In this document: positions 1-28,389 of the stretch, in pieces
Position numbering within the stretch: the stretch's first letter is position 1
How the letters are laid out: each line of letters begins with the position of its first letter
From: a virus
Direction: 5' to 3' (one strand)
Length of the DNA: 28,389 nucleotides
Virus record (IMG/VR): IMGVR_UViG_3300010354_000028
Location: 1 to 28,389 of that record
Made by a program: the position numbers and the translations under genes
The notes under the pieces: generated by a model
The model's database searches: none
Seen by the model: the letters and a program-made list of their open reading frames with translations, nothing else
Told to the model about the DNA's origin: nothing

Positions 1-123
1 CATGAACAGTCTACAAGAATTAAACACATTTGGCAGTGAAACATTAGATGTCTTAGACAATAGACCCAGTGGTGTTAAATTTAATCGTGAATATCCATTA
101 ATTGCTCAGGATCAAACATTTAC
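1..123. repeat. Direct terminal repeat, left copy
   Basis: These 123 bases are identical to 28267-28389. The match runs to the last base of the window. It means the sequence closes to a 28,266-bp circle, either because the molecule is circular or circularly permuted, or because an assembler left a word-length overlap. A true short packaged terminal repeat is possible but cannot be told apart here. The repeat begins one base before a start codon. Confidence 0.95.
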
Positions 124-2020
124 TGCTCTAGTAGATCCTTATGGTGGTCAAACATTTCAATCAATTGGTCCAGGCATTGAAATTGTTGAAATTATAAATT
201 ATCAAACTGCCAATGTGAGATATCGTGTTACTATAGTACCTGGTTCTACAACGCCATTAACTGGCAGCGCAATTTTATTCACTCCAACATTGCCCAGTGG
301 TGCTTCATTAACACAAGTGGGCAATGTATATACAATATCAGGTATTCACAGTGTGAGCGATTGGGATCAAGTAAAGAACTTTACTTGGCAATTACCTAGT
401 AATTTTAATACTTTTCCATTATGGTATTTAGAAGTCAGTGTAATTTATTATGATAGCGCACTAAGTCAAGATGTTACTAAGTCTTGGATAGCCTATGATG
501 ATAGATTTTATTACATAGCTGAATTACAAGCACAGGCCACAACTACAGCAATTATTGGTGTTAATTCACCTGCTGTGAGTTCATTAACTGGCAGTGCTTC
601 ATTACTTTGTGATATAAGAGTCATAGTTGATGCTGCCAGCAGTTTAAGTGCTACGGCTGCCTTTACATCAGATATCAATGTCAATGTAGATTATCTATCA
701 GCCACTGGGTCTATGACCAGCACTATTAGATTTACTGCTAATACTGCTGTGAATATAGGAGCCACTGCTAATGTAACCTGTAGTCCTACAGTCAGTGTAA
801 CAGGATTAACTAGTAGAACTTATACAGCCAATCAAGGTAATAATATATTTGGTACTAACACGCCTGTTGTTAGCACTCCCAATCCTGCTGATTCACTTAG
901 CATTACAATTAGCAGTTCATTAGGATATTTTACTTTAGGCAATGGCACAGTGCCTACAGGATCATTGACCATAACTGGCACAGCCAGTCAAATTAATTCA
1001 CAATTAATTCCCAGTTCTAGCTATGGTGTTTACTTTTATCCTACTAAAAATATCAGCAGTTCTGGAACTATTACATGGGCTCAAAGTCGCAATGGTACAT
1101 TAGAATTTACCACAACTATTCCCATAACAGGTTTTGCCGCTAGCGCAGATACATCTACTGTGACTATTACTACTAGTACAAATGATTATAGACCCACTGT
1201 TAATCAAGTATATTATACCACAGCAGATATACTAGTAGTTGGTGGCGGTGGCGGTGGTAGTTACACTGGCGGCGGAGGTGGCGGCCAGGTTAGATTGTTA
1301 AGTAATTTTGCTTTTGAATATGTCAATTATTCAATAACCATAGGCGCTGGCGGTACACAGGGCAGTGATTACGCATTTGATCCTAATAATCCGCCAGCTA
1401 CTATAGATGTTAGTGGTAGCACAGGTGGACAAACTACTTTTGCCAAAGAATCAGGAACAATTTACGCACAAAGCACTGGCGGTCAAGGTGCCCGTGCTGT
1501 TTATACTCGTACCAGTTTAATTTCTGGACCTCCTGTAACTTATAGATATGATACTATTGACGTATCAGGTGGTAGTTCGCCTGGATATGTTACGCCAAGT
1601 GGATCAAATGGCACACAGGCAGGTGCCAGCGTAATTGGTAATTTTGATTCTATTCAAGATAACTGGGTTTATGTTTTTGGCATTGGAGGAGGAGGAGCAG
1701 GTGCCAATAGTGCTAGACCTGTGTATCCAAATTTAGGTTATCAAACTGGTGGTAATGGTTATCAATGGACTGGCAGTTATGGAAATAATCAATATTATGG
1801 AGGTGGCGGTGGCGCAGTAGGTTACGCTGGTGGACTAGGCGGTGGCGGCACTGGTTGGAGTTATATAAATTATCTTGTAACACCTAACAGTGTACCTGGC
1901 ACAGCTAACACAGGCGGTGGAGGCGGTGGTGGTCAATATGAATCAGTTGCTGGCGTGCCAACTCCAAGACCACCAGCTGCTGGTGGCAGTGGCGTAGTTA
2001 TTATAAAATTCAGAGGATAA
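2..2020 (+). CDS. Glycine-rich receptor-binding tail protein inserted in the gpJ locus
   Basis: The product is 672 residues. Residues 1-20 (LNTFGSETLD region) look like the piece of a gpJ-like tail-tip protein that normally follows the domain ending in RYGAGI, which closes the upstream gene. Residues 30-180 are an unrecognised beta-rich segment; 180-400 are Ser/Thr/Ala-rich and resemble the Ig-like repeats of phage fibres. From about 410 to the end the protein is glycine-rich, with several GGGGGG runs and a C-terminal GGSGVVIIKF motif, as in glycine-rich phage adhesin tips. The likely role is host receptor binding at the tail tip. The start codon overlaps the upstream stop as ATGA (seen at 28268-28271), with GGAG about 11 bases upstream, so translation is probably coupled. 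The gene downstream is in the same frame after a single TAA. Function is inferred from composition and position. Confidence 0.8.
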   Translation: MNSLQELNTFGSETLDVLDNRPSGVKFNREYPLIAQDQTFTALVDPYGGQTFQSIGPGIEIVEIINYQTANVRYRVTIVPGSTTPLTGSAILFTPTLPSGASLTQVGNVYTISGIHSVSDWDQVKNFTWQLPSNFNTFPLWYLEVSVIYYDSALSQDVTKSWIAYDDRFYYIAELQAQATTTAIIGVNSPAVSSLTGSASLLCDIRVIVDAASSLSATAAFTSDINVNVDYLSATGSMTSTIRFTANTAVNIGATANVTCSPTVSVTGLTSRTYTANQGNNIFGTNTPVVSTPNPADSLSITISSSLGYFTLGNGTVPTGSLTITGTASQINSQLIPSSSYGVYFYPTKNISSSGTITWAQSRNGTLEFTTTIPITGFAASADTSTVTITTSTNDYRPTVNQVYYTTADILVVGGGGGGSYTGGGGGGQVRLLSNFAFEYVNYSITIGAGGTQGSDYAFDPNNPPATIDVSGSTGGQTTFAKESGTIYAQSTGGQGARAVYTRTSLISGPPVTYRYDTIDVSGGSSPGYVTPSGSNGTQAGASVIGNFDSIQDNWVYVFGIGGGGAGANSARPVYPNLGYQTGGNGYQWTGSYGNNQYYGGGGGAVGYAGGLGGGGTGWSYINYLVTPNSVPGTANTGGGGGGGQYESVAGVPTPRPPAAGGSGVVIIKFRG

Positions 2021-2023
2021 GCA

Positions 2024-3859
2024 ATGAGTACCATATTAAGTTCTAGTTGGCGCATTTCAGGACCAATTGATACCAGTAGGCCTGTCACTGAAAATATAGA
2101 CACCTTGGCCACAGCCAGTGGTTGCTGGGCTTCATTTGATATCAATACTGGTAAATGGGCAGTGATTATCAATCGTGCTGGAGCCAGTGTTAAAAGTTTC
2201 AATGATACCAATATCATAGGCAGTATTTCAGTAAGCGGCAGTGATCTCAATGAATTATACAATGCTGTTCAAGTAGATTTTCCACATAAAGATCTATTAG
2301 ATCAAAAAGATACCATTGTATACAGTATACCTTCAGGCGATAGATTTCCCAATGAACAAGATAATATATTGAATTTTTCATTGGACTGTGTCAATGAGCC
2401 TGTACAAATTGAAGCATTGGCCATAAGAGAATTAAAACAAAGTCGCATTGACAAGATCATTCAATTTCGCACTGATTTTACCAGTCTAGGTCTCAAAGCT
2501 GGAGATATTATAGATGTAACCAGCACCATGCTGGGATTTACAGCTAAAAAGTTTCGTATTCTCACTATCACTGAAGAAGACAATGAAGACAACACACTGG
2601 TCATTAGTATCACAGCATTTGAATATGATGATGCTGTGTACAATACCGCAGGCATTGTGAGAGAAGATAGAACACCTATCAATAATATCATAGATAAAAA
2701 TTGTAACGATGCTATCACTACCAAAGAAGATATAAATTTTGGCAGCACTCTGTTAAAATTGCTTGGTGCCAATATGGTCACTGGTTTATTAAACTCAGTG
2801 TTTACTAAAAACGCCATCACAGGTGCTGTTACACAGGCTCTAAGCAATACCACTGCTGGACAACGTGTTGAAGATGTTTTTGGTAATTCAATCAAAGGTG
2901 AATTACTGAAAAAAATAGATATTCCAGTAACTATTACAGGTCCTAGTTCAATTTGTGAAGGTAGCACACTGTCATTAATTATTGGTACTCCTTGTGATAC
3001 CTGCCTATTTCCTAATATTAATCAAGTTGACTTGCCCTACACCATTACAGGTGTACAAGCAGCAGATATTACATTTCCTTTAACTGGAACGTGTAGAATT
3101 GGTCAAACACTGTCAATACCCATTGTTGATGATGCCCTAGCAGAGTCAGAAACATTAGTGTTTACCTGTAATGGTACTAGTAAAAATGTGGTTATCAACA
3201 ATAGATTGACTTTTACCTATACCACTGATGCTAGTCCAACTACTATTACAGAAGGTTCAAGTTCTACAGTAACATTAACTACTACAGGTGTAAGTAATGG
3301 TACCACAGTGCCATATATAATCACAGGTGGTGGTACAGGTAGAGTTACTACACCATTAACTGGTACTGTAACTGTAAACAGTAATGTAGCCACATTGGTC
3401 ATAAACACCACAGATGATGCTGTATATACTGGCGCACAAAGTATTACAATTACATTTAATTCAGCACAAGCAGATCCTTGCGGTCAATTAGATAAAACTG
3501 CTAGTATTACTATCAATGATAATGATTCACCTCCAGTAGCAGATAAAACTTGTTTGTATGTCAGTGTACCTATAGTTTGGTGTGGTACTTATGATGGCAC
3601 AGACAATCAATTAAAAGGCATGACTGTGGCAAAAAGCATGATGTTGCCCAAAGCGCAAGCAGGTGAAGCCACTGTGAATGTGCCTAAAACAGTGAGTGTG
3701 ACCAAAGGTAATCCCAGCACAATCACTGTATTGACCACAGAAGCTGTGGCCAGTTCAGCAAGCTTAGGTGGACAACCTGCGCAAATTATAACCAGTTTTA
3801 ACACTGTGGCACCATTAGGTTTAATCACAGGTACAACTACAACAGTATATGGATACTAA
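2024..3859 (+). CDS. gpJ-like tail-tip protein, C-terminal part
   Basis: The product is 611 residues. Residues 8-230 match the middle of lambda gpJ-like central tail proteins as known from aquatic phages: RISGPIDTSRPVTENID, then GKWAVIINRAG, a DxNIIGSI segment, an LYNAVQVDFP segment, and a block where AGDIIDV precedes TAFEYDD. Residues 300-510 hold Calx-beta-like beta-sandwich repeats (VDDALAESETLVF, ITINDND). The protein would form part of the baseplate hub and central fibre. It lacks the N-terminal gpJ domain, which is encoded at 27513-28271. The start has AGAGGA 7 bases upstream, so it can be translated on its own. It is in frame with the preceding gene, separated only by TAA and GCA, so readthrough would yield one fused polypeptide. 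Confidence 0.85.
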   Translation: MSTILSSSWRISGPIDTSRPVTENIDTLATASGCWASFDINTGKWAVIINRAGASVKSFNDTNIIGSISVSGSDLNELYNAVQVDFPHKDLLDQKDTIVYSIPSGDRFPNEQDNILNFSLDCVNEPVQIEALAIRELKQSRIDKIIQFRTDFTSLGLKAGDIIDVTSTMLGFTAKKFRILTITEEDNEDNTLVISITAFEYDDAVYNTAGIVREDRTPINNIIDKNCNDAITTKEDINFGSTLLKLLGANMVTGLLNSVFTKNAITGAVTQALSNTTAGQRVEDVFGNSIKGELLKKIDIPVTITGPSSICEGSTLSLIIGTPCDTCLFPNINQVDLPYTITGVQAADITFPLTGTCRIGQTLSIPIVDDALAESETLVFTCNGTSKNVVINNRLTFTYTTDASPTTITEGSSSTVTLTTTGVSNGTTVPYIITGGGTGRVTTPLTGTVTVNSNVATLVINTTDDAVYTGAQSITITFNSAQADPCGQLDKTASITINDNDSPPVADKTCLYVSVPIVWCGTYDGTDNQLKGMTVAKSMMLPKAQAGEATVNVPKTVSVTKGNPSTITVLTTEAVASSASLGGQPAQIITSFNTVAPLGLITGTTTTVYGY

Positions 3860-4132: not shown

Positions 4133-4528
4133 ATGACTGCTTTTAGCAATTATTTAGAAAACAAAGTTTTAGATCATACATTGAGAGGTGCGTCAGGCGC
4201 TTATACAGCACCTAGCACTATCTATGTGGGTCTTTTCACAGCCAGCCCAACTGATTCCAACGCAGGTACTGAAGTGGCAGGCAATGCCTATCAGCGTACA
4301 GCCATAACTTTTGGTACAGCAGCTGCCAGTGGCGCAATCAGTAACTCAGCTACCTGTACTTTTCCTACTGCCACTGGTACTTGGGGTACAATTACACACA
4401 TTGGCCTATATGATGCTCAGACTTCTGGCAATTTGCTCTATTGGGGAGCTGTTACTGTGAGTAAAACTATTCAAAATGGTGATACTTTCAGCATAGGTGC
4501 TGGTAATTTAACCATAACCTTAGATTAA
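4133..4528 (+). CDS. Conserved virion-associated phage protein
   Basis: The product is 131 residues. It follows a pattern common in tailed phages: an N-terminal SNYLENKVLDHTLRG, a YTAPSTIYVGLFTA segment, a YQRTAITFG segment, and near the end WGTITHIGLYDA and a SGNLLYWGAV strand. It is predicted all-beta with no membrane segment. Proteins of this type sit among tail and fibre genes and are thought to be structural. AAGGAGATATAAAG just upstream gives a strong ribosome binding site. A hairpin follows 4 bases after the stop, making this the last gene of its transcription unit. The exact role is not known. Confidence 0.75.
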   Translation: MTAFSNYLENKVLDHTLRGASGAYTAPSTIYVGLFTASPTDSNAGTEVAGNAYQRTAITFGTAAASGAISNSATCTFPTATGTWGTITHIGLYDAQTSGNLLYWGAVTVSKTIQNGDTFSIGAGNLTITLD

Positions 4529-5156: not shown

Positions 5157-6959
5157 ATGTCTTATAATATCACCATAGAAGAAGTTCAAAATGGTATTGC
5201 TATAGACACAGCCAATGGACAAGGTATTAATGTAACTGTAGAAGAAGTGGTAAACGATATAGTCGTAACACCACCAGTGGTAAATCAACTTACAGTTAGT
5301 AATACCAATTATCCTATTGAAATCAATTACAATGGCATTCTCATTGAAGCAGGCGGAATAGCAGATAATGGATTACCAACTGGTGGTACTGTAGGACAAT
5401 TTTTAAGAAAAAGTTCTAGCACAGACTATGATGCTGGTTGGGTCAATATTACTGATGTTAATACTACCTATGGTATTTCAGCAGAAACTGCTACAGGCGG
5501 AGCTAATTTAAGACTTACTGGCAGCGATGCCACAATAGATAATGTAAAATTTGCTGATGGTTCAAATGTTACAATTACACGCACTGATGCTAACACAATT
5601 ACTTTTACTTCTACAGATACCAAATATGGTATTTCAGCAGAAACTGCTACAGGCGGTGTCAATTTAAGATTAACTGGCACAGATGCTACTACTGATGATG
5701 TTAAATTGGCCGCAGGTTCAAATATAACATTAACAAGAACAGATGCTAACACAATTACTATTGCTGGCACAGGTGTTACAGATATTGTACAAGATTTAAC
5801 ACCACAACTTGGTGGTAATCTAGATGTCAATGGCAAAGAAATTGTTTCTGTAAGCAATGGAAATATTACACTTGCTCCTAATGGTTCAGGCGACATAATT
5901 TTAAAACATACTGATGTATTCAATGGTCTTGGTATGGTTTTGGTTGGTCCAGGCACTGACCTGGGAATTATTTCTGCTAATGGCGCCAATGGCTTGTTAA
6001 TACAAGCAGACCCTAATAATGCTGCTGGAAGTGCCAATGTATTATTAGGTGTAAATGGATCAATAGATATAACTTCAGGTCCAACAGGAAAAATTTATAA
6101 CAAAAGCAACACTACTTTGTTTGGAGTTGGCAATGCCACAGCAAGAATTAGCAGTTACAGTAACCGCAATTTAGAAATAGTTACTAATGATGGTGTTAAT
6201 TCAGGTAGTATTATACTTAATCAAGGTGTTAATGGTAATATGTTGCTTGATGTTAATGGCAATGGTGTTATTGTTATTAACAATTCAGGTACTAATATAA
6301 ACATAAGTCGTAGATCAGCAAGCACAGGCACACAAAGTAATGCTCTAGGTGTTCAACGCAATTTTACTGCTAATACACTAAGCAATATGAATGATCATAT
6401 GGCTGCTGTGGCATTTAGTATGAGAGATTCAGCTGGTACACAGAGTTTTTTCACTCGTGTGGGTGGAGTTTACCGTACCAATAATGCTCACCAACTTGCT
6501 TTTGAATTATCAACTGATAATTTTACTAATTCAAAAAGATTCGCTACCCTTGCTGAAGGTGCCTTATTGTTAGGACATTCAACTGGTACTGAAGAACAAA
6601 ATATCTCCACTGTTACCGCACAAAATCTTGTATTATCAACTAATCAAGCAACTAATAGTGGTACAATTACTATTACTAACGGTGCTAATGGCAACATATC
6701 AATTACACCTAATGGTACTGGTAGTGTGGTCTTAGATGGATTAAGTTATCCACAAACAGATGGTACAGCAGGACAAGTATTAAAAACCAACGGATCTGGC
6801 GTTCTTTCTTGGGTTGACAAGCAAGATCCTACCATAGTGAATGACAGTCAACCCGCAGTCCAATCAACTGGTCAGCATTGGTACAGGCCTATGACAGGTG
6901 CGTTATATACCGCACGTAATAGTGCTTGGGAACCTATTAATGATGACGGGTTTTTTTAA
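5157..6959 (+). CDS. Repeat-rich tail fibre protein 1
   Basis: The product is 600 residues. Residues 1-60 hold two short beta repeats (NITIEEVQNG, NVTVEEVVND), a likely attachment domain. Residues 105-208 contain two tandem 52-residue repeats beginning YGISAETATGG. Then comes a PQLGGNLDVNGKEIVSVSNG linker of the kind common in aquatic phage fibres, and a 170-residue cassette from about residue 384 (RRSASTG to VLSWV) that recurs in the next two genes. The C-terminus has a short QHWYRPMTGALYTARN segment typical of fibre tips. TAGGAG lies just upstream of the start. A trimeric fibre or tail-appendage role is inferred from repeats and context; no catalytic motif is seen. Confidence 0.8.
   Translation: MSYNITIEEVQNGIAIDTANGQGINVTVEEVVNDIVVTPPVVNQLTVSNTNYPIEINYNGILIEAGGIADNGLPTGGTVGQFLRKSSSTDYDAGWVNITDVNTTYGISAETATGGANLRLTGSDATIDNVKFADGSNVTITRTDANTITFTSTDTKYGISAETATGGVNLRLTGTDATTDDVKLAAGSNITLTRTDANTITIAGTGVTDIVQDLTPQLGGNLDVNGKEIVSVSNGNITLAPNGSGDIILKHTDVFNGLGMVLVGPGTDLGIISANGANGLLIQADPNNAAGSANVLLGVNGSIDITSGPTGKIYNKSNTTLFGVGNATARISSYSNRNLEIVTNDGVNSGSIILNQGVNGNMLLDVNGNGVIVINNSGTNINISRRSASTGTQSNALGVQRNFTANTLSNMNDHMAAVAFSMRDSAGTQSFFTRVGGVYRTNNAHQLAFELSTDNFTNSKRFATLAEGALLLGHSTGTEEQNISTVTAQNLVLSTNQATNSGTITITNGANGNISITPNGTGSVVLDGLSYPQTDGTAGQVLKTNGSGVLSWVDKQDPTIVNDSQPAVQSTGQHWYRPMTGALYTARNSAWEPINDDGFF
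5469..5780 (+). repeat. Tandem 156-bp repeat inside fibre 1
   Basis: Two in-frame units of 156 bp (5469-5624 and 5625-5780) encode paralogous 52-residue segments. The first 32 bases of each unit are identical; the rest has diverged mainly at codon third positions and by a few amino-acid changes. It is a fibre-shaft duplication. Confidence 0.85.
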
Positions 6960-6971
6960 AAGGAGGCCAAG

Positions 6972-8513
6972 ATGGCTATAAGGATTAAACGTAGTTCAGG
7001 AAATACAGCCCCAGCCTTGCTTGAATCTGGCCAGTTGGCCTATGTAGAAGGTGCTACCAATGGAGGTACACTCTACTATGGAGAAATTGGTGGTACAGTT
7101 CGTGCTATTGCTGGTAAACAATATGTTGACAAATTAAATGGCATTGAGGCTGGTGCTCAAGTCAACACAGTTACTTCAGTGGCTGGACGAACAGGTGCTA
7201 TCACCCTAGCAGTAGCAGATGTTAGTAATGCTGAATCAACAGCCAACAAAGGTGCTGTCAATGGTTATTGCCCACTTGATTCAGGTGGTAAAGTGGCCAG
7301 CACATATCTACCCAGTTATGTAGATGATGTGCTTGAATACAATGATTTGGCCAGTTTTCCCGTCACTGGTACAGCAGGCATTATCTATGTAGCACAAGAT
7401 ACCAATAAGACTTATCGTTGGGCTAGTACAGTTTACGTTGAAATTTCAGCAAGTCCTGGTACTACAGATGCTTTAACTGAAGGTAGTGTAAACAAATATT
7501 ATTTAGATAGTCGTGCTCGTCAAAGTATTTCAGTAACTGATTCAGGTGGTGATGGCTCACTAAGTTATGATAATTCTACTGGCGTTATTACCTATACAGG
7601 TCCTAGTGCTACAGATGTTCGTGCTCATTTTTCAGCTGGTACTGCTATCAGTATTACCAATGGTCAAATTGATTTTACAGGTATACAAGCAACAGGTAAT
7701 GAATTAGAAAATATTGTAGAAGATACAACTCCACAACTTGGTGGTGCTCTTGACGTTAATGGTCAAGAAATTGTTTCTGTAAGCAATGGTAACATTGTGG
7801 TTGCTCCTAACGGTACTGGTACTATTGTATTAAACAAAGATGGTACTAGTTTTACTGTGGCTCGTCGTTCAGCAAGCACAGGCACTGTAAGCAATGCTGT
7901 AATAGTTCAACGTAATTTTACTGCTAACACATTAAGTAACATGGATGGACATACTGCTACTATGGCTTTCAGTGTTAGAGACAGTGTCGCAGCGCAGGCA
8001 GTGTTTGCTCGTGTTGGTGGTGAATATGCTACTGATAATGATCATAGCATAGTATTTGATCTTAGCAATAACAGTTTTACCAATAGCACAAGAATTTTTA
8101 CTCTTGCTGCCAATGCTGCGGTATTAGGTGCCACAGGTTCATCAACTGCTCAATCATTAACAACTTTAAGCACACAAGATTTAACTTTAAGTACTAATTT
8201 AGGTGTAGATTCTGGTACTATTACTATCACTGATGGCGCTAATCAGAACATAGCAATTACACCAAATGGTACTGGTAAAATCAGTCTTGATGGCATGTTA
8301 TGGCCCAATGCTGATGGTACTGTGAATCAGGTATTAACAACCAATGGTTCAGGTGTACTAAGTTGGGCAACAAATCCAGCAGGTGTTACTGCTTTTACTG
8401 GACTCAGTGATGTACCAACTTCTTACAGTGGCGCAGGTGGTTACTATGTTAAAGTTAACGCAGGTGCTACTGCTCTTGAATTCAGTCAGCACGTTGATGA
8501 CGGTACATTCTAA
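6972..8513 (+). CDS. Repeat-rich tail fibre protein 2
   Basis: The product is 513 residues. The N-terminus MAIRIKRSSGNTAPALLESG and the following QLAYVEG...LYYGEI pattern form the short head domain common to structural proteins of T4-like and other aquatic phages. Residues 45-90 (LNGIEAGAQVNTVTSVAGRTG) are a known fibre linker; 90-240 include the NKYYLDSRAR segment. Then follow the PQLGG linker and the same 170-residue cassette as in fibres 1 and 3, here the most diverged copy. The C-terminus ends VKVNAGATALEFSQ, as in many fibre proteins. AAGGAGG precedes the start and the gene follows fibre 1 by 12 bases, so they are co-transcribed. No enzymatic domain is visible. Confidence 0.8.
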   Translation: MAIRIKRSSGNTAPALLESGQLAYVEGATNGGTLYYGEIGGTVRAIAGKQYVDKLNGIEAGAQVNTVTSVAGRTGAITLAVADVSNAESTANKGAVNGYCPLDSGGKVASTYLPSYVDDVLEYNDLASFPVTGTAGIIYVAQDTNKTYRWASTVYVEISASPGTTDALTEGSVNKYYLDSRARQSISVTDSGGDGSLSYDNSTGVITYTGPSATDVRAHFSAGTAISITNGQIDFTGIQATGNELENIVEDTTPQLGGALDVNGQEIVSVSNGNIVVAPNGTGTIVLNKDGTSFTVARRSASTGTVSNAVIVQRNFTANTLSNMDGHTATMAFSVRDSVAAQAVFARVGGEYATDNDHSIVFDLSNNSFTNSTRIFTLAANAAVLGATGSSTAQSLTTLSTQDLTLSTNLGVDSGTITITDGANQNIAITPNGTGKISLDGMLWPNADGTVNQVLTTNGSGVLSWATNPAGVTAFTGLSDVPTSYSGAGGYYVKVNAGATALEFSQHVDDGTF

Positions 8514-8528
8514 TAAGTAAAAAAACAC

Positions 8529-8547
8529 AGGGGGTGAAATGCCCCCA
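8529..8547 (+). other. Intergenic GC hairpin without T-run
   Basis: GGGGG (8530-8534) pairs with CCCCC (8542-8546) around TGAAATG. No T-run follows, so termination is unlikely; processing or mRNA protection between fibre genes 2 and 3 is more plausible. Confidence 0.5.
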
Positions 8548-8574
8548 GCCTAATACATTTGATGAGGAAACTCT

Positions 8575-11500
8575 ATGGCCATAAGACATAAACGAACAAC
8601 AACCACAGGATACACTTGGCAATCAGGTGATACTGTAGAAGGCCAAATTGGTCTTAATCTAACAGATGGTACACTACACTTTAAAAAAGCCAATGGTGTT
8701 TATGTAAACATCAGTGAAGGCGGTGGTGGATTAACAGATATAGTTCAAGATACTACTCCACAGTTGGGTGGTAATCTAGATGTCAATGGCAACTCAATTG
8801 TTTCAGCGTCAAATGGAAATATCTCAATTACACCCAATGGTACTGGCAGTGTTGTTTTAGATGGCAGTGCGTGGCCTCAGGATCAAGGCATTGCGGATCA
8901 AGTGTTAATCACTGATGGTGCTGGACAAACAAGTTGGAGTGTGATTAAAACTATTCATAGTCTAGTCTATAACGCAGATTCAGTAACCATAAACAAAGGA
9001 CAGCCAGTTTATCTATTTGGTGCCAATGGTGCTAATCCTTCAGTAAAACTAGCAAATAATGTAGGTGATACGGCTTCAGCAACTACCTATGGTTTGGCCA
9101 ATGAAACGATTGCCGCAGGAGCAACTGGTGAAATAGTAACACAGGGCTTAATTAAGAATGTTGATACCAGCACTTATACCAGCGGTGATATCCTATATCT
9201 TGGTTCAACTGCTGGTTCATTAACTACTACTAAACCCTATGGTGGAAATCATCTTGTTTATATTGGTGTTGTAACCAGTGTAAATGCTGTAAGTGGACGA
9301 ATATTAGTTAACGTTCAAAACGGCTATGAAATTGATGAATTACATGGTGTAGATGTCAATCACACACTGGCATTGGCTGCTAATCATTATCTACGCTACA
9401 CAGGATCACTGTGGCAAAACGTAACACTAGACATCAGTCATGACACTACTCCACAACTGGGCGGCAATCTTGATGTAAATGGTAATTCTATTGTATCTAC
9501 ATCAAATGGTAACATTACCATTGCGCCTAATGGCACAGGCAAGGTTGTTATCTCAGGTGATTTACAAGTTGATGGCACAACTACAACTATCAATTCAACC
9601 ACATTAGACGTTGATGATATTAATATTACCATTGCCAAAGGTGCTGCCAATGCGGCTGCTGCCAATGGTGGTGGTATTACTCTTGAAGGTCCTACCACTG
9701 CTGCCACAATTACCTATGCGTCAGCAGATGATTCATGGAACTTAAACAAGAAAACTTCAGCACCAGAATTACAAATTGATAATATCAACATCAATGGTAA
9801 TACAATTATCAGCACAGACACTAATGGTGCTATTCAATTAACACCTAACGGTACAGGTGATGTTTTCTTAAATGCTGACACTGTGAATTTTGGTGATAGT
9901 GGTGGTAGTCTATTAAAAAGTTTTGGTACTAGCTATGAAATATCTACTACAACTACCAACGCAAGTAAAATTGTTACCACTGAAGGTGATGGTGGCATTA
10001 GTGCTATTAATAGCATACAATTAGCCACTGATCGTGTGTCCTTAGGAAAAACAGGCGGAAATGCCATAATACATGGTTTTACCAATAGTGGTAGTTTAAC
10101 CCTATGGGGTTATGCTGATGCTGTAGGTTCAGGTAGTGGTGGTAAAATTGACATAGGTTCTACAGCCAATAGTAATATTGAAATTGCTCCTAATGGCACA
10201 GGTGACGTATATCTTACTGCTGACACTGTTAGAGTGGGTGACAGTGGTGCCAATGCTACTATAACTACCAATGGCGCGGGTGATTTAATTTTAAACACTA
10301 ATTCAGGTACTAATTCTGGATCAATTACCATACAAGATGGTACTAACGGTAACATGTTGCTTGATGCCAATGGCACTGGTGTTATTGTGGTTAATAACGC
10401 AGGTACTGGAATAAGTCTTGTGCGTAGATCAGCAAGCACAGGTACACAAAGTAATGCTCTAGGTGTTCAACGTAACTTTACCGCAAACACTTTGGCTAAT
10501 ATGAATGATCATATGGCTGCTGTGGCATTTAGTATGAGAGATTCAGCTAGTACACAAAGCTTTTTCACTCGTGTAGGTGGTGTTTATAGTACCAGTAATG
10601 CTCATCAAATTGCTTTTGAAAGATCAACTGATAATTTTACCAATGCTACAAGATTTGCCACTATGGCCCCTAATTCCTTGTTGTTAGGACATTCAACTGG
10701 CAGTGACGCACAAAATATCACCACAGTTACCACACAAAATCTGGTATTATCAACTAATCAATCAACTAACAGTGGTACTATTACCATAGCCAATGGTGCC
10801 AACCAGAATATCTCAATTACACCAAATGGTACTGGTTATGTAACACTTGATGGTGTGAATTGGCCCAACACAGCAGGTACTAACAACTTTGTCTTAACCA
10901 CAAACGGCTCTAATCAAGCCAGTTGGACTAATCCACAAAGTGCTGTGTTTACCTATACTGCTACTAACGGTGGTTCATTTTCATTAACTAGTACCAGCAA
11001 TTATCTACAGCATATCTATGGTGGTTCAGCTGCCACAGTAACATTACCATCCACTGCTACTATGGCATTTGGGCAGGGCTTTAAATTTATCAACAATAGT
11101 GGACAAACTGCCACAATTAATACTTCTACCAGTGTGTTAGTTACAACTATACCAACTGGTGGCACAATGGAAGTGTTTTGTGTTAACACAGGATCAAACG
11201 CAGCTACCAGTTGGGTAGTGGCAAGATCTTTTGAAACTATTACTGGTACTGGTAATGCTGTATTAAGTGCCGCGCCCACTATTACAGGTAGTGCTGTCAT
11301 TGGCGGAACTACATTCCCTTCTGCCACTGGTACTACAGGACAGGTGCTGGCATTGTCAAGTGCTGGAACTGCTGCTTGGACTACATCAAGTGGAGGTGCT
11401 GCTGAAATAGCAGTGGCCTATGCTACTGCCTATTACAGTTATGCTAGCAATGAACAAAGATTAAATTGGTCTACAGAACATCGTGATCCAGGTAGTTGGT

Positions 11501-11817
11501 TAACATTGGGTACTTCAACAGCGGCAGGTCAATTCACTATAACCTCAGCAGGCACATATTTGATAGAATTGTTTGGTAGTGCTACTCACGGTGATAATGC
11601 CAGTGGTACTGCTCTTTATAATACCACTGGAGCAGCCAATTTACAAACACAACAGATGCCTTCAACTACAGCATCAACTGATTCATGGATTTGGCCTCAT
11701 TATTGTTATGCTCATACAATTACTACTAGCAATACCTATGAATTTAGACATAGTGGAGCAGGGTCTGGCCTAAAAACTGGTAGTAGAATGATATTAAAAA
11801 TTACTAAATTAGCATAA
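8575..11817 (+). CDS. Large repeat-rich tail fibre protein 3 with C1q-like tip
   Basis: The product is 1080 residues, the largest in the genome. It opens with the same head-domain type as fibre 2 (MAIRHKRTTTTGYTWQSGD). Three copies of a PQLGGNLDVNGNSIVS-type linker and several PNGTG motifs form the shaft. Residues 130-250 are a distinct beta domain (KGQPVYLFGANGANP), of a type seen in other phage fibres. From about residue 616 it carries the 170-residue cassette shared with fibres 1 and 2. The last 140 residues (from about 940; FTITSAGTYLIELFGSA, ending SRMILKITKLA) look like a C1q/TNF-type jelly-roll, a good candidate for trimerisation and receptor contact. GATGAGG precedes the start. The jelly-roll assignment is by pattern only. 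Confidence 0.8.
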   Translation: MAIRHKRTTTTGYTWQSGDTVEGQIGLNLTDGTLHFKKANGVYVNISEGGGGLTDIVQDTTPQLGGNLDVNGNSIVSASNGNISITPNGTGSVVLDGSAWPQDQGIADQVLITDGAGQTSWSVIKTIHSLVYNADSVTINKGQPVYLFGANGANPSVKLANNVGDTASATTYGLANETIAAGATGEIVTQGLIKNVDTSTYTSGDILYLGSTAGSLTTTKPYGGNHLVYIGVVTSVNAVSGRILVNVQNGYEIDELHGVDVNHTLALAANHYLRYTGSLWQNVTLDISHDTTPQLGGNLDVNGNSIVSTSNGNITIAPNGTGKVVISGDLQVDGTTTTINSTTLDVDDINITIAKGAANAAAANGGGITLEGPTTAATITYASADDSWNLNKKTSAPELQIDNININGNTIISTDTNGAIQLTPNGTGDVFLNADTVNFGDSGGSLLKSFGTSYEISTTTTNASKIVTTEGDGGISAINSIQLATDRVSLGKTGGNAIIHGFTNSGSLTLWGYADAVGSGSGGKIDIGSTANSNIEIAPNGTGDVYLTADTVRVGDSGANATITTNGAGDLILNTNSGTNSGSITIQDGTNGNMLLDANGTGVIVVNNAGTGISLVRRSASTGTQSNALGVQRNFTANTLANMNDHMAAVAFSMRDSASTQSFFTRVGGVYSTSNAHQIAFERSTDNFTNATRFATMAPNSLLLGHSTGSDAQNITTVTTQNLVLSTNQSTNSGTITIANGANQNISITPNGTGYVTLDGVNWPNTAGTNNFVLTTNGSNQASWTNPQSAVFTYTATNGGSFSLTSTSNYLQHIYGGSAATVTLPSTATMAFGQGFKFINNSGQTATINTSTSVLVTTIPTGGTMEVFCVNTGSNAATSWVVARSFETITGTGNAVLSAAPTITGSAVIGGTTFPSATGTTGQVLALSSAGTAAWTTSSGGAAEIAVAYATAYYSYASNEQRLNWSTEHRDPGSWLTLGTSTAAGQFTITSAGTYLIELFGSATHGDNASGTALYNTTGAANLQTQQMPSTTASTDSWIWPHYCYAHTITTSNTYEFRHSGAGSGLKTGSRMILKITKLA
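10423..10930 (+). repeat. Fibre cassette shared by three genes (third copy)
   Basis: A module of about 170 codons occurs in fibre 1 (about 6308-6813), fibre 2 (about 7862-8370) and here. The fibre 1 and fibre 3 copies are close at DNA level, with long identical stretches around the motif MNDHMAAVAFSMRDSA; the fibre 2 copy is much more diverged. Confidence 0.8.
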
Positions 11818-24109: not shown

Positions 24110-26524
24110 ATGGCTGCTGGTGATTTAAATTATAATGTTAGCGTTGACACTAGTCAAGCTATACGCAATATTCAAAATCTTAATAATTCCTTAGGTGGAT
24201 TAACTACTGCGTTTAAAACTGCTTTTGCTGGTATATCAATTGCTGCTGTGACTAGATTCAGTGATGACATTACCAATTTGCGTAATAAACTGATGTTATT
24301 AAGTGATAGCCAAGAACAGGCTAATACACAATTTAAAGCATTGGCAGGCATTGCTGTTGGTGCTAGAACTAATTTAACTGCTGTTGGTGATTTATATTTT
24401 AGAATTGCTCGTTCAGCACGAGAACTAGGCATTAGTCAACAAGAAGCAGCAAATATCACAGACAGTTTGGCTAAAGCTATGACAGCCAGTGGTCTAAGTG
24501 CCAATGAAGCTGCTGGTCCATTGCTACAGTTAGGTCAAGCATTACAAAGTGGTGTGTTCCAAGGTGATGAATTACGTTCAATCTTAGAAGGCTTACCACC
24601 TGTGGCCAAAGCTCTAGCAGATCAACTAGGCGTTCCAGTTGGTGCTCTTAAGAAACTGGGCAGTGAAGGTCAAATCACAGCACAAGACTTTGTTCAAGCC
24701 ATGCGTAAAGCACGTGATGCCATTGAACAAGATTTTGCCAAAACAATTCCCACAATATCAGGCGCATTTAACACTCTAAAAACAACCACTGCTTTGGCCT
24801 TTGATGAATTTGAAAGAAATACTCAAGTTGGTCAAACATTTGCTCTTAGTATAGAATATGTGGCCTTTAAAATCTATCAATTAAGCAAGAGCATTGATCA
24901 AATTATTGGTCCTATTGGCATGTTGGTACAGGTAGTTGGCACATTAATTGTATTTTCTGTTGCTGGTAGGATCATAGCAGCTTTTGGTGCTGTGTTAGGT
25001 AGAATAGCCACTGGCTTTGGTAGTCTTACCATGTTTGTTAGAGAAACCATAGAAAGAATGGCTGACTTTGGTAAAACAATGACTGCTGCTGGTGGTGGCA
25101 TATTGGCCTTTGTCAGTACTGTAATTTTCACTCTAACCCCAATGGGTAGATTCTTAAAATATCTATTAAGCATTGGCGCTGCGGCAGCTGCTTGGATGGG
25201 CTTTGATAAAATTAAAGAAGGATTTAAAGATCTAGGCACTGAAGGCAGCGGATCAAGAACAGAATTAGAAAATTTCCGCAAGGAAATGGCCAATTTAAAA
25301 TCACAATTAGATACCACAGCTAGTGCTCCTGCTCCTAAATTCTTAGACCCTAAGGTCATGCGTCAGGCCAAAGATGAATTAGATCAAATAGTTATAAATT
25401 ATCAAAGACAAAATGGCGAATTGATCAAGCGTCTAAATCTAGAACAAGAATTGATAGGAGCCAGTGAACAACAACGTAGTGTTCGCCAAGCACTGTTTGA
25501 TTTAGAAAATAGTTATCTATCTGAAGTTAATAGATTAACTGATGACTATCGTAAAAAATCTCAAAGTAAGTCAGCAGAAGATCAAGCACAACTGCCTCTA
25601 ATACAAGAAGCACTGCGTAGAGTCACTGAAGAATATGCTAGTCAAATCAACATAGTTAAACAATTAACTAATGAAAATTATATTTTACAAGAAGCAGAAA
25701 AACGTAGATTGGCCTTAAGTGAATTCAGTATTAGAAGTCAATTAGATGGCAATAGAGAATTAAGAAAGATTCAAGATGACATTGCCAAAGTTGGCATGAC
25801 TGAAATAGAAAAGAAATACTATGATATTGCTCGTGCCAGCGAAGAAAGTGCTCGCGCACAGATAGAACAAGAAAATGCTCGTCGTCGTAGTCTAAAATTA
25901 ACAGAAATGACTGCCACTGAAGAACAAGCATATTACAAAGCTGCCAAGGCTAATAATGATAGTTTAATTGCCAGCACTGGGCAATTATATGAAAAGAGTC
26001 GTCAATTTAGCACAGGTTGGACTTCAGCATTTCAACAGTATCTTGATGAAGCTACCAATGGCGCCAAAGCAGCAGAAGCTATATTCCGTAAGGCCACACA
26101 GGGCATGGAAGATGCTATTATTAATTTTGCCAAGACTGGTAAATTTGAGTGGAAGAATTTTGTGATCAGCATGGCAGAAGAATTGCTACGCAGTCAAATA
26201 CGTCAATTGATGGCACAGCTATTCACAATTCAATCAGGTGGATCAAGCGGTGGCAACTTCTTTGCTAAATTATTAGGTTTTGCCAATGGTGGTGTTATAC
26301 CTACAAATAAACCTGTGCTAGTTGGCGAACGTGGTCCTGAAATTATCACAGGCGCAGCAGGAAGAACTGTGATACCCAATGAAGCATTAGGTATGGCTGG
26401 TTCAGTAACTTATTATATCAATGCTGTGGACGCTGCCAGTTTCAAGAGCCTAATTGCTCGTGATCCAGGTTTCATTCACGCAGTGGCACAACAAGGTGCT
26501 AAACTAACACCAGCAAGGAGATAA
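24110..26524 (+). CDS. Tape measure protein
   Basis: The product is 804 residues. Residues 30-215 match the conserved tape-measure N-terminal domain (LGLS-type motif here as ELGISQQEAANITDSLAKAM; FQGDELRSILEGLPPVAKAL). Hydrophobic segments at about 265-300 and 325-360 are usual in such proteins and may help DNA cross the inner membrane. Residues 380-680 are a charged coiled coil. The C-terminus has FANGGVIPTNKPVLVGERGP, standard for the family. It sets tail length: at about 1.5 angstrom per residue, roughly 120 nm. Confidence 0.95.
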   Translation: MAAGDLNYNVSVDTSQAIRNIQNLNNSLGGLTTAFKTAFAGISIAAVTRFSDDITNLRNKLMLLSDSQEQANTQFKALAGIAVGARTNLTAVGDLYFRIARSARELGISQQEAANITDSLAKAMTASGLSANEAAGPLLQLGQALQSGVFQGDELRSILEGLPPVAKALADQLGVPVGALKKLGSEGQITAQDFVQAMRKARDAIEQDFAKTIPTISGAFNTLKTTTALAFDEFERNTQVGQTFALSIEYVAFKIYQLSKSIDQIIGPIGMLVQVVGTLIVFSVAGRIIAAFGAVLGRIATGFGSLTMFVRETIERMADFGKTMTAAGGGILAFVSTVIFTLTPMGRFLKYLLSIGAAAAAWMGFDKIKEGFKDLGTEGSGSRTELENFRKEMANLKSQLDTTASAPAPKFLDPKVMRQAKDELDQIVINYQRQNGELIKRLNLEQELIGASEQQRSVRQALFDLENSYLSEVNRLTDDYRKKSQSKSAEDQAQLPLIQEALRRVTEEYASQINIVKQLTNENYILQEAEKRRLALSEFSIRSQLDGNRELRKIQDDIAKVGMTEIEKKYYDIARASEESARAQIEQENARRRSLKLTEMTATEEQAYYKAAKANNDSLIASTGQLYEKSRQFSTGWTSAFQQYLDEATNGAKAAEAIFRKATQGMEDAIINFAKTGKFEWKNFVISMAEELLRSQIRQLMAQLFTIQSGGSSGGNFFAKLLGFANGGVIPTNKPVLVGERGPEIITGAAGRTVIPNEALGMAGSVTYYINAVDAASFKSLIARDPGFIHAVAQQGAKLTPARR

Positions 26525-26527
26525 ACA

Positions 26528-26908
26528 ATGAGTTTCCAATGGATTATGGATCGTGCTGAATCATTTAGCATTAATAGAAAAAAGATAGTGGCCAGCACAC
26601 AAAGCCGTGATGGCACTGTGAGAGCAGTGAGTCGTGGCAATGCGCTAAAAAGATTTGAAGTTAAATTACCAGATGGTATTCCTTGGACAGATCTGCGCAC
26701 AAATATCATTGCTGCTGAAGCATTGGATCGCTATCAGACTGCCACTTTAACTATTCCTTATGCTAAATTTCCATGGTATTATGGTAATGTAGCACCAGGT
26801 AGTAATGAATCATATACTGTGATTTGTACACAATTTCCTGAATGGATTATATCAGCTAGAAATCAAGTTAGTTGGTCAGGTTCATTTATTTTTGTTGAGG
26901 TTGTCTAA
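26528..26908 (+). CDS. Minor tail protein (distal tail, gpM-like position)
   Basis: The product is 126 residues and beta-rich (RGNALKRFEVKLPDGIPW; QTATLTIPYAKFPWYYG; YTVICTQFPEWIISARN). It directly follows the tape measure gene, the position of lambda gpM, and should be part of the tail tip ring. AAGGAG precedes the start, and the stop overlaps the next start by one base as TAATG. The fold is inferred from position. Confidence 0.75.
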   Translation: MSFQWIMDRAESFSINRKKIVASTQSRDGTVRAVSRGNALKRFEVKLPDGIPWTDLRTNIIAAEALDRYQTATLTIPYAKFPWYYGNVAPGSNESYTVICTQFPEWIISARNQVSWSGSFIFVEVV

Positions 26909-27516
26909 TGCCTATTAATCTAAGCACATATGATAGTATAGAAACAGGACTATTTGTTCGCATTGAAGTAGACTACTATAAAACTAGTCCTAGTGCTACA
27001 CCCGCATCAACAGTATTAAGATTCAGTGATTACAAAGGCACAGTTACAATCAATGGTGAAAGTTATGTAGGACTGGGAAGTCTTTTGTCAATTACAGGCA
27101 GCAGCAGTGAACTAAAACCCACATCTGGTTCAGTCACAGTCACAGTCAGTGGTATTCCTAATACCAGCATTGCTGAAATTATTAACAGCCGTATGAAAGG
27201 CTGTCCAGTAGAAATATATCGTGTGGTATTTAATCCTGTAACAGGCACACAATTGGCCATTTCAGGTAATCCAGCAGGTCGTTTCTTTGGTATTGTAAGC
27301 AATTATACATTAGAAGAAGATTATGATCTAGACAACAGAGTGGCCACTAACACTATCAGCATGATCTGTACCAGCAACATTGATTTTCTACAAAACAAAA
27401 TTGCTGGACGCAAGACCAATCCTGAAAGTATGAAAAAATTCTATCCTACAGATGTAAGTTTTGATCGTGTGCCCAGTCTTGTTGGAGCAAATTTTAACTT
27501 TGGAGCAAAACAATGA
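26908..27516 (+). CDS. Minor tail protein (gpL-like position)
   Basis: The product is 202 residues. The N-terminal half has a beta pattern common in tail-tip proteins (VRIEVDYYKTSPS; RFSDYKGTVTINGESYVGLG; ITGSSSELKPTSGSVTVTVS), then AEIINSRMKGCPVEIYRVVF and GRFFGIVSNYTLEEDY, resembling hub-type proteins of the DUF2163/DUF1833 kind. It carries three or more cysteines, but no clear iron-sulphur motif like that of lambda gpL. It lies between gpM-like and gpJ-like genes, overlapping both. Confidence 0.75.
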   Translation: MPINLSTYDSIETGLFVRIEVDYYKTSPSATPASTVLRFSDYKGTVTINGESYVGLGSLLSITGSSSELKPTSGSVTVTVSGIPNTSIAEIINSRMKGCPVEIYRVVFNPVTGTQLAISGNPAGRFFGIVSNYTLEEDYDLDNRVATNTISMICTSNIDFLQNKIAGRKTNPESMKKFYPTDVSFDRVPSLVGANFNFGAKQ

Positions 27517-28271
27517 GTTGGATAGATGACATTGTAAGTTTAGGTAGTTCTGCTCTTAATTTTCTAGGTGGCAACACCATAGGCAGCGCATTGGCTCGCA
27601 CCGCAGTCACAGGATTGGTGTTGAATCAAGTGGCCAAAAGTATCAACAAAGACAATCAAGTAGAAGAAAAAGGCACTAGAGTACAAGTAGATCCTGATCC
27701 AGATTATCGTATACCTGTGGTCTATGGAGAAGCAGTGGTTTCAGGTGCTGTGGTAGATGCTCAATTAACCAATGGCAATACCACAATGTATTATTGCCTT
27801 GTGCTCAGTGAAAAAACAGGACGAGTAGCATTGGGCGCTGGTGGTCAAAGCACGTTCAATATTTTAGATGTCTATTGGAATGACAATAGATTGGTCTTTG
27901 GTTCAAATACCACAGTCAGCGGTTATGTTGATAAATCAAATAATTTCTGTGAAGATATTGCTGGTAAAATTTCTGTATATTTTTATGATGGCAATTCAAC
28001 CACACCAAGAGCACCCAGTGGATATCCTGTGGGCAGTATAGGTCCAGCTTATAATTATATGCCTAATTGGACTGTGAATCATAACATGACCAATTTGGTA
28101 TTTGCCATTGTTAGAATGGACTATGACGCAGAAGCCAAAACTACCAGCTTGGGTAATTTTAGATTTAAAATTAGAAATTCAATGAGTCAACCTGGTGATT
28201 GTCTCTATGATTACATGACCAATACACGTTATGGTGCTGGTATAGACCCTGCGGAGATTTACGCATCATGA
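27513..28271 (+). CDS. gpJ-like tail-tip protein, N-terminal part
   Basis: The product is 252 residues. It begins with an amphipathic segment (MSWIDDIVSLGSSALNFLG), then a beta domain with PDYRIPVVYGEAVVSGAVVD, as in lambda gpJ-like central tail proteins. It ends just after CLYDYMTNTRYGAGIDPAEI, a conserved gpJ point where the protein normally continues for hundreds of residues. Here a TGA stops it, and the ATG of the next gene overlaps that stop as ATGA. The continuation is at 2-2020 (short piece plus inserted adhesin) and 2024-3859. The three must meet in the tail tip if all are functional. Confidence 0.88.
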   Translation: MSWIDDIVSLGSSALNFLGGNTIGSALARTAVTGLVLNQVAKSINKDNQVEEKGTRVQVDPDPDYRIPVVYGEAVVSGAVVDAQLTNGNTTMYYCLVLSEKTGRVALGAGGQSTFNILDVYWNDNRLVFGSNTTVSGYVDKSNNFCEDIAGKISVYFYDGNSTTPRAPSGYPVGSIGPAYNYMPNWTVNHNMTNLVFAIVRMDYDAEAKTTSLGNFRFKIRNSMSQPGDCLYDYMTNTRYGAGIDPAEIYAS

Positions 28272-28389
28272 ACAGTCTACAAGAATTAAACACATTTGGC
28301 AGTGAAACATTAGATGTCTTAGACAATAGACCCAGTGGTGTTAAATTTAATCGTGAATATCCATTAATTGCTCAGGATCAAACATTTAC
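28267..28389. repeat. Direct terminal repeat, right copy
   Basis: This is an exact copy of bases 1-123. It contains the last codons of the gpJ N-terminal gene (stop at 28269-28271) and the first 40 codons of the gene that starts at base 2. The genes either side of the junction therefore overlap by ATGA in the circular map. Confidence 0.95.

Follow-up and report, generated by a model that had tools for sequence, protein, structure and literature searches.

The tail-tip region of an uncultivated phage (IMG/VR record IMGVR_UViG_3300010354_000028, positions 1-28,389; this whole 28,389-nucleotide stretch is the window referred to below) encodes a gpJ/pb3-type tail hub, a ring protein, in three genes, which we call J1, J2 and J3 (Table 1). 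The window begins and ends with an exact 123-bp repeat (1-123 = 28267-28389), and the J1/J2 junction sits at the cut. Because the repeat is exact, the ends join and the junction can be read continuously; the record is a single genome of 28,266 bp, circular or terminally redundant. J1 ends with RYGAGIDPAEIYAS directly before its stop codon, at the conserved LYDYMTNTRYGAGI..EI helix. J2 starts with MNSLQELNTFGSETLDVL and ends with GGSGVVIIKFRG, and in the window it shares its frame with J3, with TAA GCA between them. The coordinates, the ATGA overlap of J1 and J2 and the common J2/J3 frame with a single TAA are all as given in an earlier, sequence-only reading of this DNA, which had also described a 650-residue glycine-rich insert. 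The insert is present, but only residues 405-671 of J2 are glycine-rich, and they are carried on a stalk of about 380 residues with two predicted beta domains.

Table 1. Features of the three-gene hub locus in the window (aa, amino acids)
Feature	Position	Strand	Remarks
J1, N-terminal third of gpJ/pb3-like hub	27513..28271	+	252 aa; hydrophobic N-terminal helices and first hub beta domains
GGAG, putative J2 ribosome-binding site	28253..28256	+	inside J1; read from sequence
ATGA, chain break 1	28268..28271	+	J1 TGA (28269-28271) overlaps J2 ATG (28268-28270)
J2, middle gene, inserted adhesin subunit	2..2020	+	672 aa; 5' end also at 28268-28389 (circular genome)
J2 residues 1-21, hub-derived segment, proposed docking tag	2..64	+	alignment to unsplit and two-way relatives; model positions
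J2 residues 22-404, stalk	65..1213	+	AlphaFold2: beta domains ~37-170 and ~265-395, low-confidence link
J2 residues 405-671, glycine-rich tip	1214..2014	+	ends GVVIIKF; Pfam PF21722; fold matches
AGAGGA, putative J3 ribosome-binding site	2012..2017	+	read from sequence
TAA stop of J2, chain break 2 (hub beta-hairpin turn)	2018..2020	+	sequence, alignment, model
J3, C-terminal part of hub protein	2024..3859	+	sequence; homology
J3 residues 1-225, remaining hub core	2024..2698	+	starts at residue 277 of unsplit model, the partner strand of J2's strand
Upstream tail-tip gene	26908..27516	+	phrog_2048 tail protein; weak match to phiJL001 Gp84 hub-attachment domain

J1, J2 and J3 correspond to consecutive segments of the hub

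J1 matched the gpJ of Methylophilaceae phage P19250A (tblastn, E=5e-29) as well as gpJ-type proteins of Pelagibacter phages, and J3 matched a region farther downstream in the same P19250A protein (1e-23). A profile made from split and unsplit hub rows retrieved T5 pb3 (E=3e-22), the DT57C hub (9e-24) and T1 (1.4e-6). By sequence homology the locus thus belongs to the gpJ/pb3 hub family. For Phage-tail_3 (PF13550), the J3 of the window stays below the gathering score (18.4 vs 23 bits), which the Pelagibacter phages HTVC111P and HTVC112P pass. The position of the genes is also that of the family, since J1 lies downstream of the tape measure gene and other tail-tip genes (order: tape measure 24110-26524, 26528-26908, 26908-27516, J1, J2, J3).

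The correspondence can be followed through a series of relatives. In the unsplit form L054, LYGASIDPSLINTSSFTALNTYSAQSVTYTTYPAQQRYAINGLLDTSRKVL is continuous. The two-way split form L027 has RYGAGIDPTEINT, a stop codon and then MNTLAQLNTFSDEPVSYTDELSSSVLTLSDRYQINGLLDT, while the three-way split window has RYGAGIDPAEIYAS, a stop codon, MNSLQELNTFGSETLDVLDNRP, the insert up to VVIIKFRG, a second stop codon and then MSTILSSSWRISGPIDTSRPV. The hub of the unsplit relatives thus contains, one directly after the other, the segments found in J1, in residues 1 to ~21 of J2 and in J3. In an alignment of 59 rows, the J3 of most three-way loci begins opposite residue 277 of the L102 hub, which is unsplit; in the aligned loci, J3 lacks the ~21-residue segment where J2 is present and contains it where J2 is absent. 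This alignment with unsplit gpJ, proposed beforehand as a check, puts the three products at neighbouring positions. A one-chain hub core from the RYGAGI helix on is usual for the family, if not strictly defining; here the core is broken at 254/255 and at 274-276 (L102 numbering). As it is otherwise homologous, the window represents a member of the gpJ/pb3 family in split form.

The breaks flank a helix and a strand of the hub core

We modelled the hub of the unsplit relative L102 with AlphaFold2 (520 aa, 59 alignment rows). The model has a mean predicted local distance difference test score (pLDDT) of 84 and a predicted template modelling score (pTM) of 0.80. Compared with the PDB, it matched T5 pb3 (E=4.5e-22, template modelling score (TM) 0.61), lambda gpJ (6.3e-18) and the RcGTA megatron (2.9e-14); it is accordingly on the model of the unsplit L102 that the hub fold is recognised.

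In this model, break 1 falls at about residue 254/255, in the loop ahead of helix 255-265. Break 2 is the turn 274-276 of a beta-hairpin between strands 269-273 and 277-281. Taken together, alignment and break positions suggest that J2 would contribute the helix and the first strand, and that J3 opens with the partner strand; the separate chains may dock in this helix-strand arrangement. The earlier placement of the insert at a hub loop is borne out by the hairpin turn, with the modification that there are two distinct breaks, about 20 hub residues apart.

J2 combines a conserved hub-derived segment with exchangeable tips

Among 51 dereplicated J2 proteins, M1, L7 and N8 are invariant, S3, L4, D19 and R21 are conserved in at least 90%, and W121 is nearly invariant. 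The AlphaFold2 model of the window's J2 shows two confident beta domains (~37-170 and ~265-395) with a poor link. No specific fold was found for the stalk in the PDB, where the matches were generic and Ig/cadherin-like (TM ~0.1), and J2 had no match among 50,697 phage records. Residues 405-671 belong to Gly_rich_2 (PF21722; E=4.6e-17, 63.2 bits against a gathering cut-off of 24.3), and the viral fold matches of J2 are glycine-rich phage proteins.

The tips of the 51 proteins are of several classes: Gly_rich_2 (21), FG-GAP_2 (13), Laminin_G_3 (3), DUF285 (2) and BNR_2 (2). Closely related loci differ in them. L037 and L103 are 89% identical in J1, 96% in the hub part of J3 and 85% in the rest of J3; their J2 proteins are 65% identical over the first 75 residues and ~20% or less thereafter. 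The pairs L032/L107 and L046/L047 likewise have J2 proteins that are much more diverged than their hubs. Tips have thus been exchanged in these close pairs while the flanking hub was retained, and the idea of a swappable adhesin-type module, put forward in the sequence-only reading, gains from both the variety of classes and the unrelated tips on near-identical hubs. Since the tips would leave the hub through the hairpin turn while the hub is kept, the hairpin would be the socket for adhesin exchange.

Some loci carry additional genes or domains. Four-way loci have two J2-type genes in tandem (L031:2707-5510, L095:2751-4390, L040:1116-4024), both of which open with the hub segment, for example MQTLNDLNTYSGESIQF and MSTFTTLNDYSADDVVL. 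L036, L031 and L095 form one clade, and the second copy in L031 has a Laminin_G_3 domain. In L006:8944-10965 and L011:8078-9970, an extra insertion of ~650 bp is found in J3 after its hub residue ~52, which in L006 is a lectin-like Laminin_G_3 domain. This makes two insertion sites in the hub.

Distribution and history of the split forms

IMG/VR was scanned by a J1 search (72 loci) and a profile search (80 loci), with partly overlapping results. Of the 120 J1 loci, 4 are split two ways, 18 are unsplit, 22 are split with J3 not reached, 5 are truncated and 71 are split three ways, the last number including a few loci with two J2-type genes or a seemingly frameshifted J2 (L004, L115). Dereplication left 55 three-way loci. 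Because dozens of independent contigs show identical breaks and coupling, the split is far beyond chance.

In a tree of 68 dereplicated hubs, every split form falls into one clade (support 97/96), together with L102; the remaining unsplit forms lie outside. A nested group (100/99) unites L102 with three two-way forms, while the fourth two-way form, L070, is separate. Four state changes are enough to explain the tree, and monophyly of the three-way forms was rejected (approximately unbiased (AU) test, p=0.0015). With its unsplit gpJ of 1136 aa amid two-way split forms, L102 (6001-9408) looks like a re-fusion, and the two-way forms and L102 together look like reversals. The simplest reading of the tree would be one three-way gain, two insert losses and one re-fusion; repeated insertion is a possible alternative history. 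We had also considered the two-way split as an evolutionary intermediate, but this is not favoured: the two-way forms nest inside the three-way tree (the AU result above), so insert loss is the preferred explanation.

A proposed model and its alternatives

We consider it quite probable that the hub of this phage is made as three co-translated chains whose adhesin tips are exchanged at a hairpin socket. J1 would form the first part of the hub and end in the loop past the RYGAGI helix. J2 would begin with ~21 hub residues, helix and strand in the unsplit relatives, and pass out of the hub at the beta-hairpin turn to continue as a stalk with a receptor-binding tip. J3 would open with the partner strand of the hairpin and complete the hub. 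Coupled translation, through the ATGA overlap and the ribosome-binding site at the end of J2, could provide matched amounts of the chains, which would assemble non-covalently, J2 being docked by its helix-strand tag. Recombination at the hairpin would then exchange the tips and keep the surrounding hub. A tentative extension, in which we place distinctly less trust, is that this ~21-residue helix-strand piece has become a docking tag, so that the tail tip has a true socket into which different adhesin subunits plug non-covalently; in L031, L040 and L095 two adhesins could then compete for it, giving mixed tips per phage.

Several points weigh against the three-chain model. Assembly into one hub trimer is something we infer from the genes, as we do complex formation, docking, receptor binding and a change of host range. 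The head of J2 is probably host-binding, as judged from domain type and variability alone, and residues 523-634 of the window's tip mostly have a pLDDT below 50. The class frequencies among the 120 loci are skewed by the J1-based search patterns and motifs, and all three-way members are metagenomic contigs (0 isolates).

The alternative that survives best leaves the docking of J2 as proposed and gives the tip another role, in tail stability or polysaccharide degradation. It would suit the lack of a known receptor or ligand, the BNR-like and DUF285 tips of a few J2 proteins and the mannanase-like peripheral domain of the R4C megatron (PMC10276861). The main classes (glycine-rich, FG-GAP, Laminin_G, and PA14 in HTVC112P) are nevertheless adhesion-type folds, and replacement of tips at a fixed site fits selection on host recognition, which makes this role unlikely.

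Somewhat less probable still is that J2 is an independent tail-fibre gene lying by chance between hub genes, with an incidental resemblance to the hub and with J1 and J3 pairing without it. J2 tips do resemble ordinary fibre tips, and two-way and re-fused relatives without the insert exist; yet residues 1 to ~21 of J2 are the very hub segment that is otherwise missing, with L7 and N8 invariant, and in the aligned loci J3 has this segment only where J2 is absent.

The sequence-only reading had described the chains as separate, coupled genes or else as a readthrough fusion. A single J1-J2-J3 polypeptide, produced if ribosomes read through the J2 TAA, shift frame at the J1 stop, or both, would agree with the common J2/J3 frame in the window and in 23 of 51 loci, and with the identical relative frame of J1 and J2 in 50 of 59 dereplicated two- and three-way loci. 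But J3 is in the +1 frame in another 23 loci and in the +2 frame in 5. Moreover, a Shine-Dalgarno-like AGG/GGA lies 4-16 nucleotides upstream of all 51 J3 starts, compared with 17% of other ATGs in J1/J2; the typical site is TAAGGA, overlapping the J2 stop. J2 starts are preceded by AGG/GGA/GAG in 50 of 51 cases. The J1/J2 overlaps of -4 (38 loci), -1 (12) and -8 (8), with +3 in a single locus, include a second frame, and overlaps such as ATGA and TAATG are a common form of start-stop coupling. Mixed J2/J3 frames and ribosome-binding sites at J3 support independent initiation with coupling, which upholds the first option for the window, with its ATGA overlap and its own J3 site. We reject the fusion on the unconserved frames and the conserved sites, and regard it as very improbable.

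Misassembly, a frame error or the decay of gpJ into a pseudogene could be suspected from the location of the J1/J2 junction at the contig ends, but these explanations have next to no probability and are rejected on conservation among relatives: the same breaks recur in dozens of contigs, the junction is internal in some of them (e.g. L002), the closest relative has open J1 and J3 hub frames at 70-73% protein identity, and the circular overlap is exact, so that the split is genuine, as first read.

Comparison with known tail hubs

Division of a pb3-type hub over more than one gene is known from lambda, where it is shared by gpL and gpJ with the plug gene gpI between them (PMC10721106), and from JBD30 with a similar two-protein hub, gp50/gp53 (PMC11445458). 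The likeness extends to the inserted module in lambda. In these phages, however, the hub is divided between gpL and gpJ at the HDII-insertion region, whereas the window has two further breaks downstream of it, within gpJ itself, and an exchangeable adhesin as its middle chain.

The megatrons of RcGTA and roseophage R4C are single-chain hubs that contain a large peripheral domain, which in R4C is mannanase-like (PMC7296036, PMC10276861). In these gp15-type hubs the order is iris, adhesin-like, peripheral and central, so that the peripheral domain stands between two hub parts, at about the J2 slot by order and length only. Profile and sequence comparison with the R4C megatron did not show residue-level equivalence of the slot. 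In gp47 of Pelagibacter phage HTVC112P, a PA14/GLEYA insert occupies the same hub loop as J2; unlike in the window, it is in frame within one intact gpJ, and it is absent from HTVC111P. Kolga, another Pelagibacter phage (gp15, L122), has a single-chain gpJ with an insert of ~300 residues directly before the LYDYLTN-type helix and another one later. We rejected it as a same-slot case, since its inserts are at hub positions other than the J2 slot.

Evolved Dit proteins and similar insertions of carbohydrate-binding modules also place binding modules in a conserved tail-tip scaffold (PMC6669499, PMC10688798); going by the abstracts and general knowledge, the scaffold is different and has no chain breaks. 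A glycine-rich (brush) domain borne by the hub has been proposed as antireceptor in LSH1, and likewise in mycobacteriophage hubs (PMC13243795). The likeness is a glycine-rich tip on the hub as likely antireceptor, but the LSH1 domain is C-terminal on the hub chain, while that of the window is on a separate middle chain. In the open-access literature we found no account of a gpJ that is itself divided into three chains, the middle one being the adhesin.

Other genes of the phage

The gene complement includes terminase, portal, scaffold, capsid and tape measure genes. The product of the gene directly upstream of J1 (26908-27516) is a candidate gpL-type partner that might complete the hub. Three large fibre-like genes in tandem (5157-11817) share long diverged repeats (300-nucleotide copies at 6183, 7737 and 10297) and have weak phrog_677 matches; they are probably paralogous fibres. 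The region 4133-4525 strongly matches Podophage GP4 fiber I protein gp80 (PF23140, E=1.7e-49), although the phage looks long-tailed, and PHROGs labels this family as a head protein. A search of genome contigs for a prophage or host link gave no relative.

Implications

Few structural parts of siphophages are as conserved as the tail hub, and here a large clade is found to have it stably divided into three chains. In genomes of this kind, a short 'gpJ' gene should not be annotated as broken. Whether a short helix-strand tag can complete a hub in trans becomes testable. The middle chain is apparently an exchangeable host-recognition cartridge, a natural route to new adhesins that would leave the hub fold undisturbed. 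In this phage and dozens of its relatives, the tail tip thus appears to be a natural plug-in socket for receptor-binding parts.

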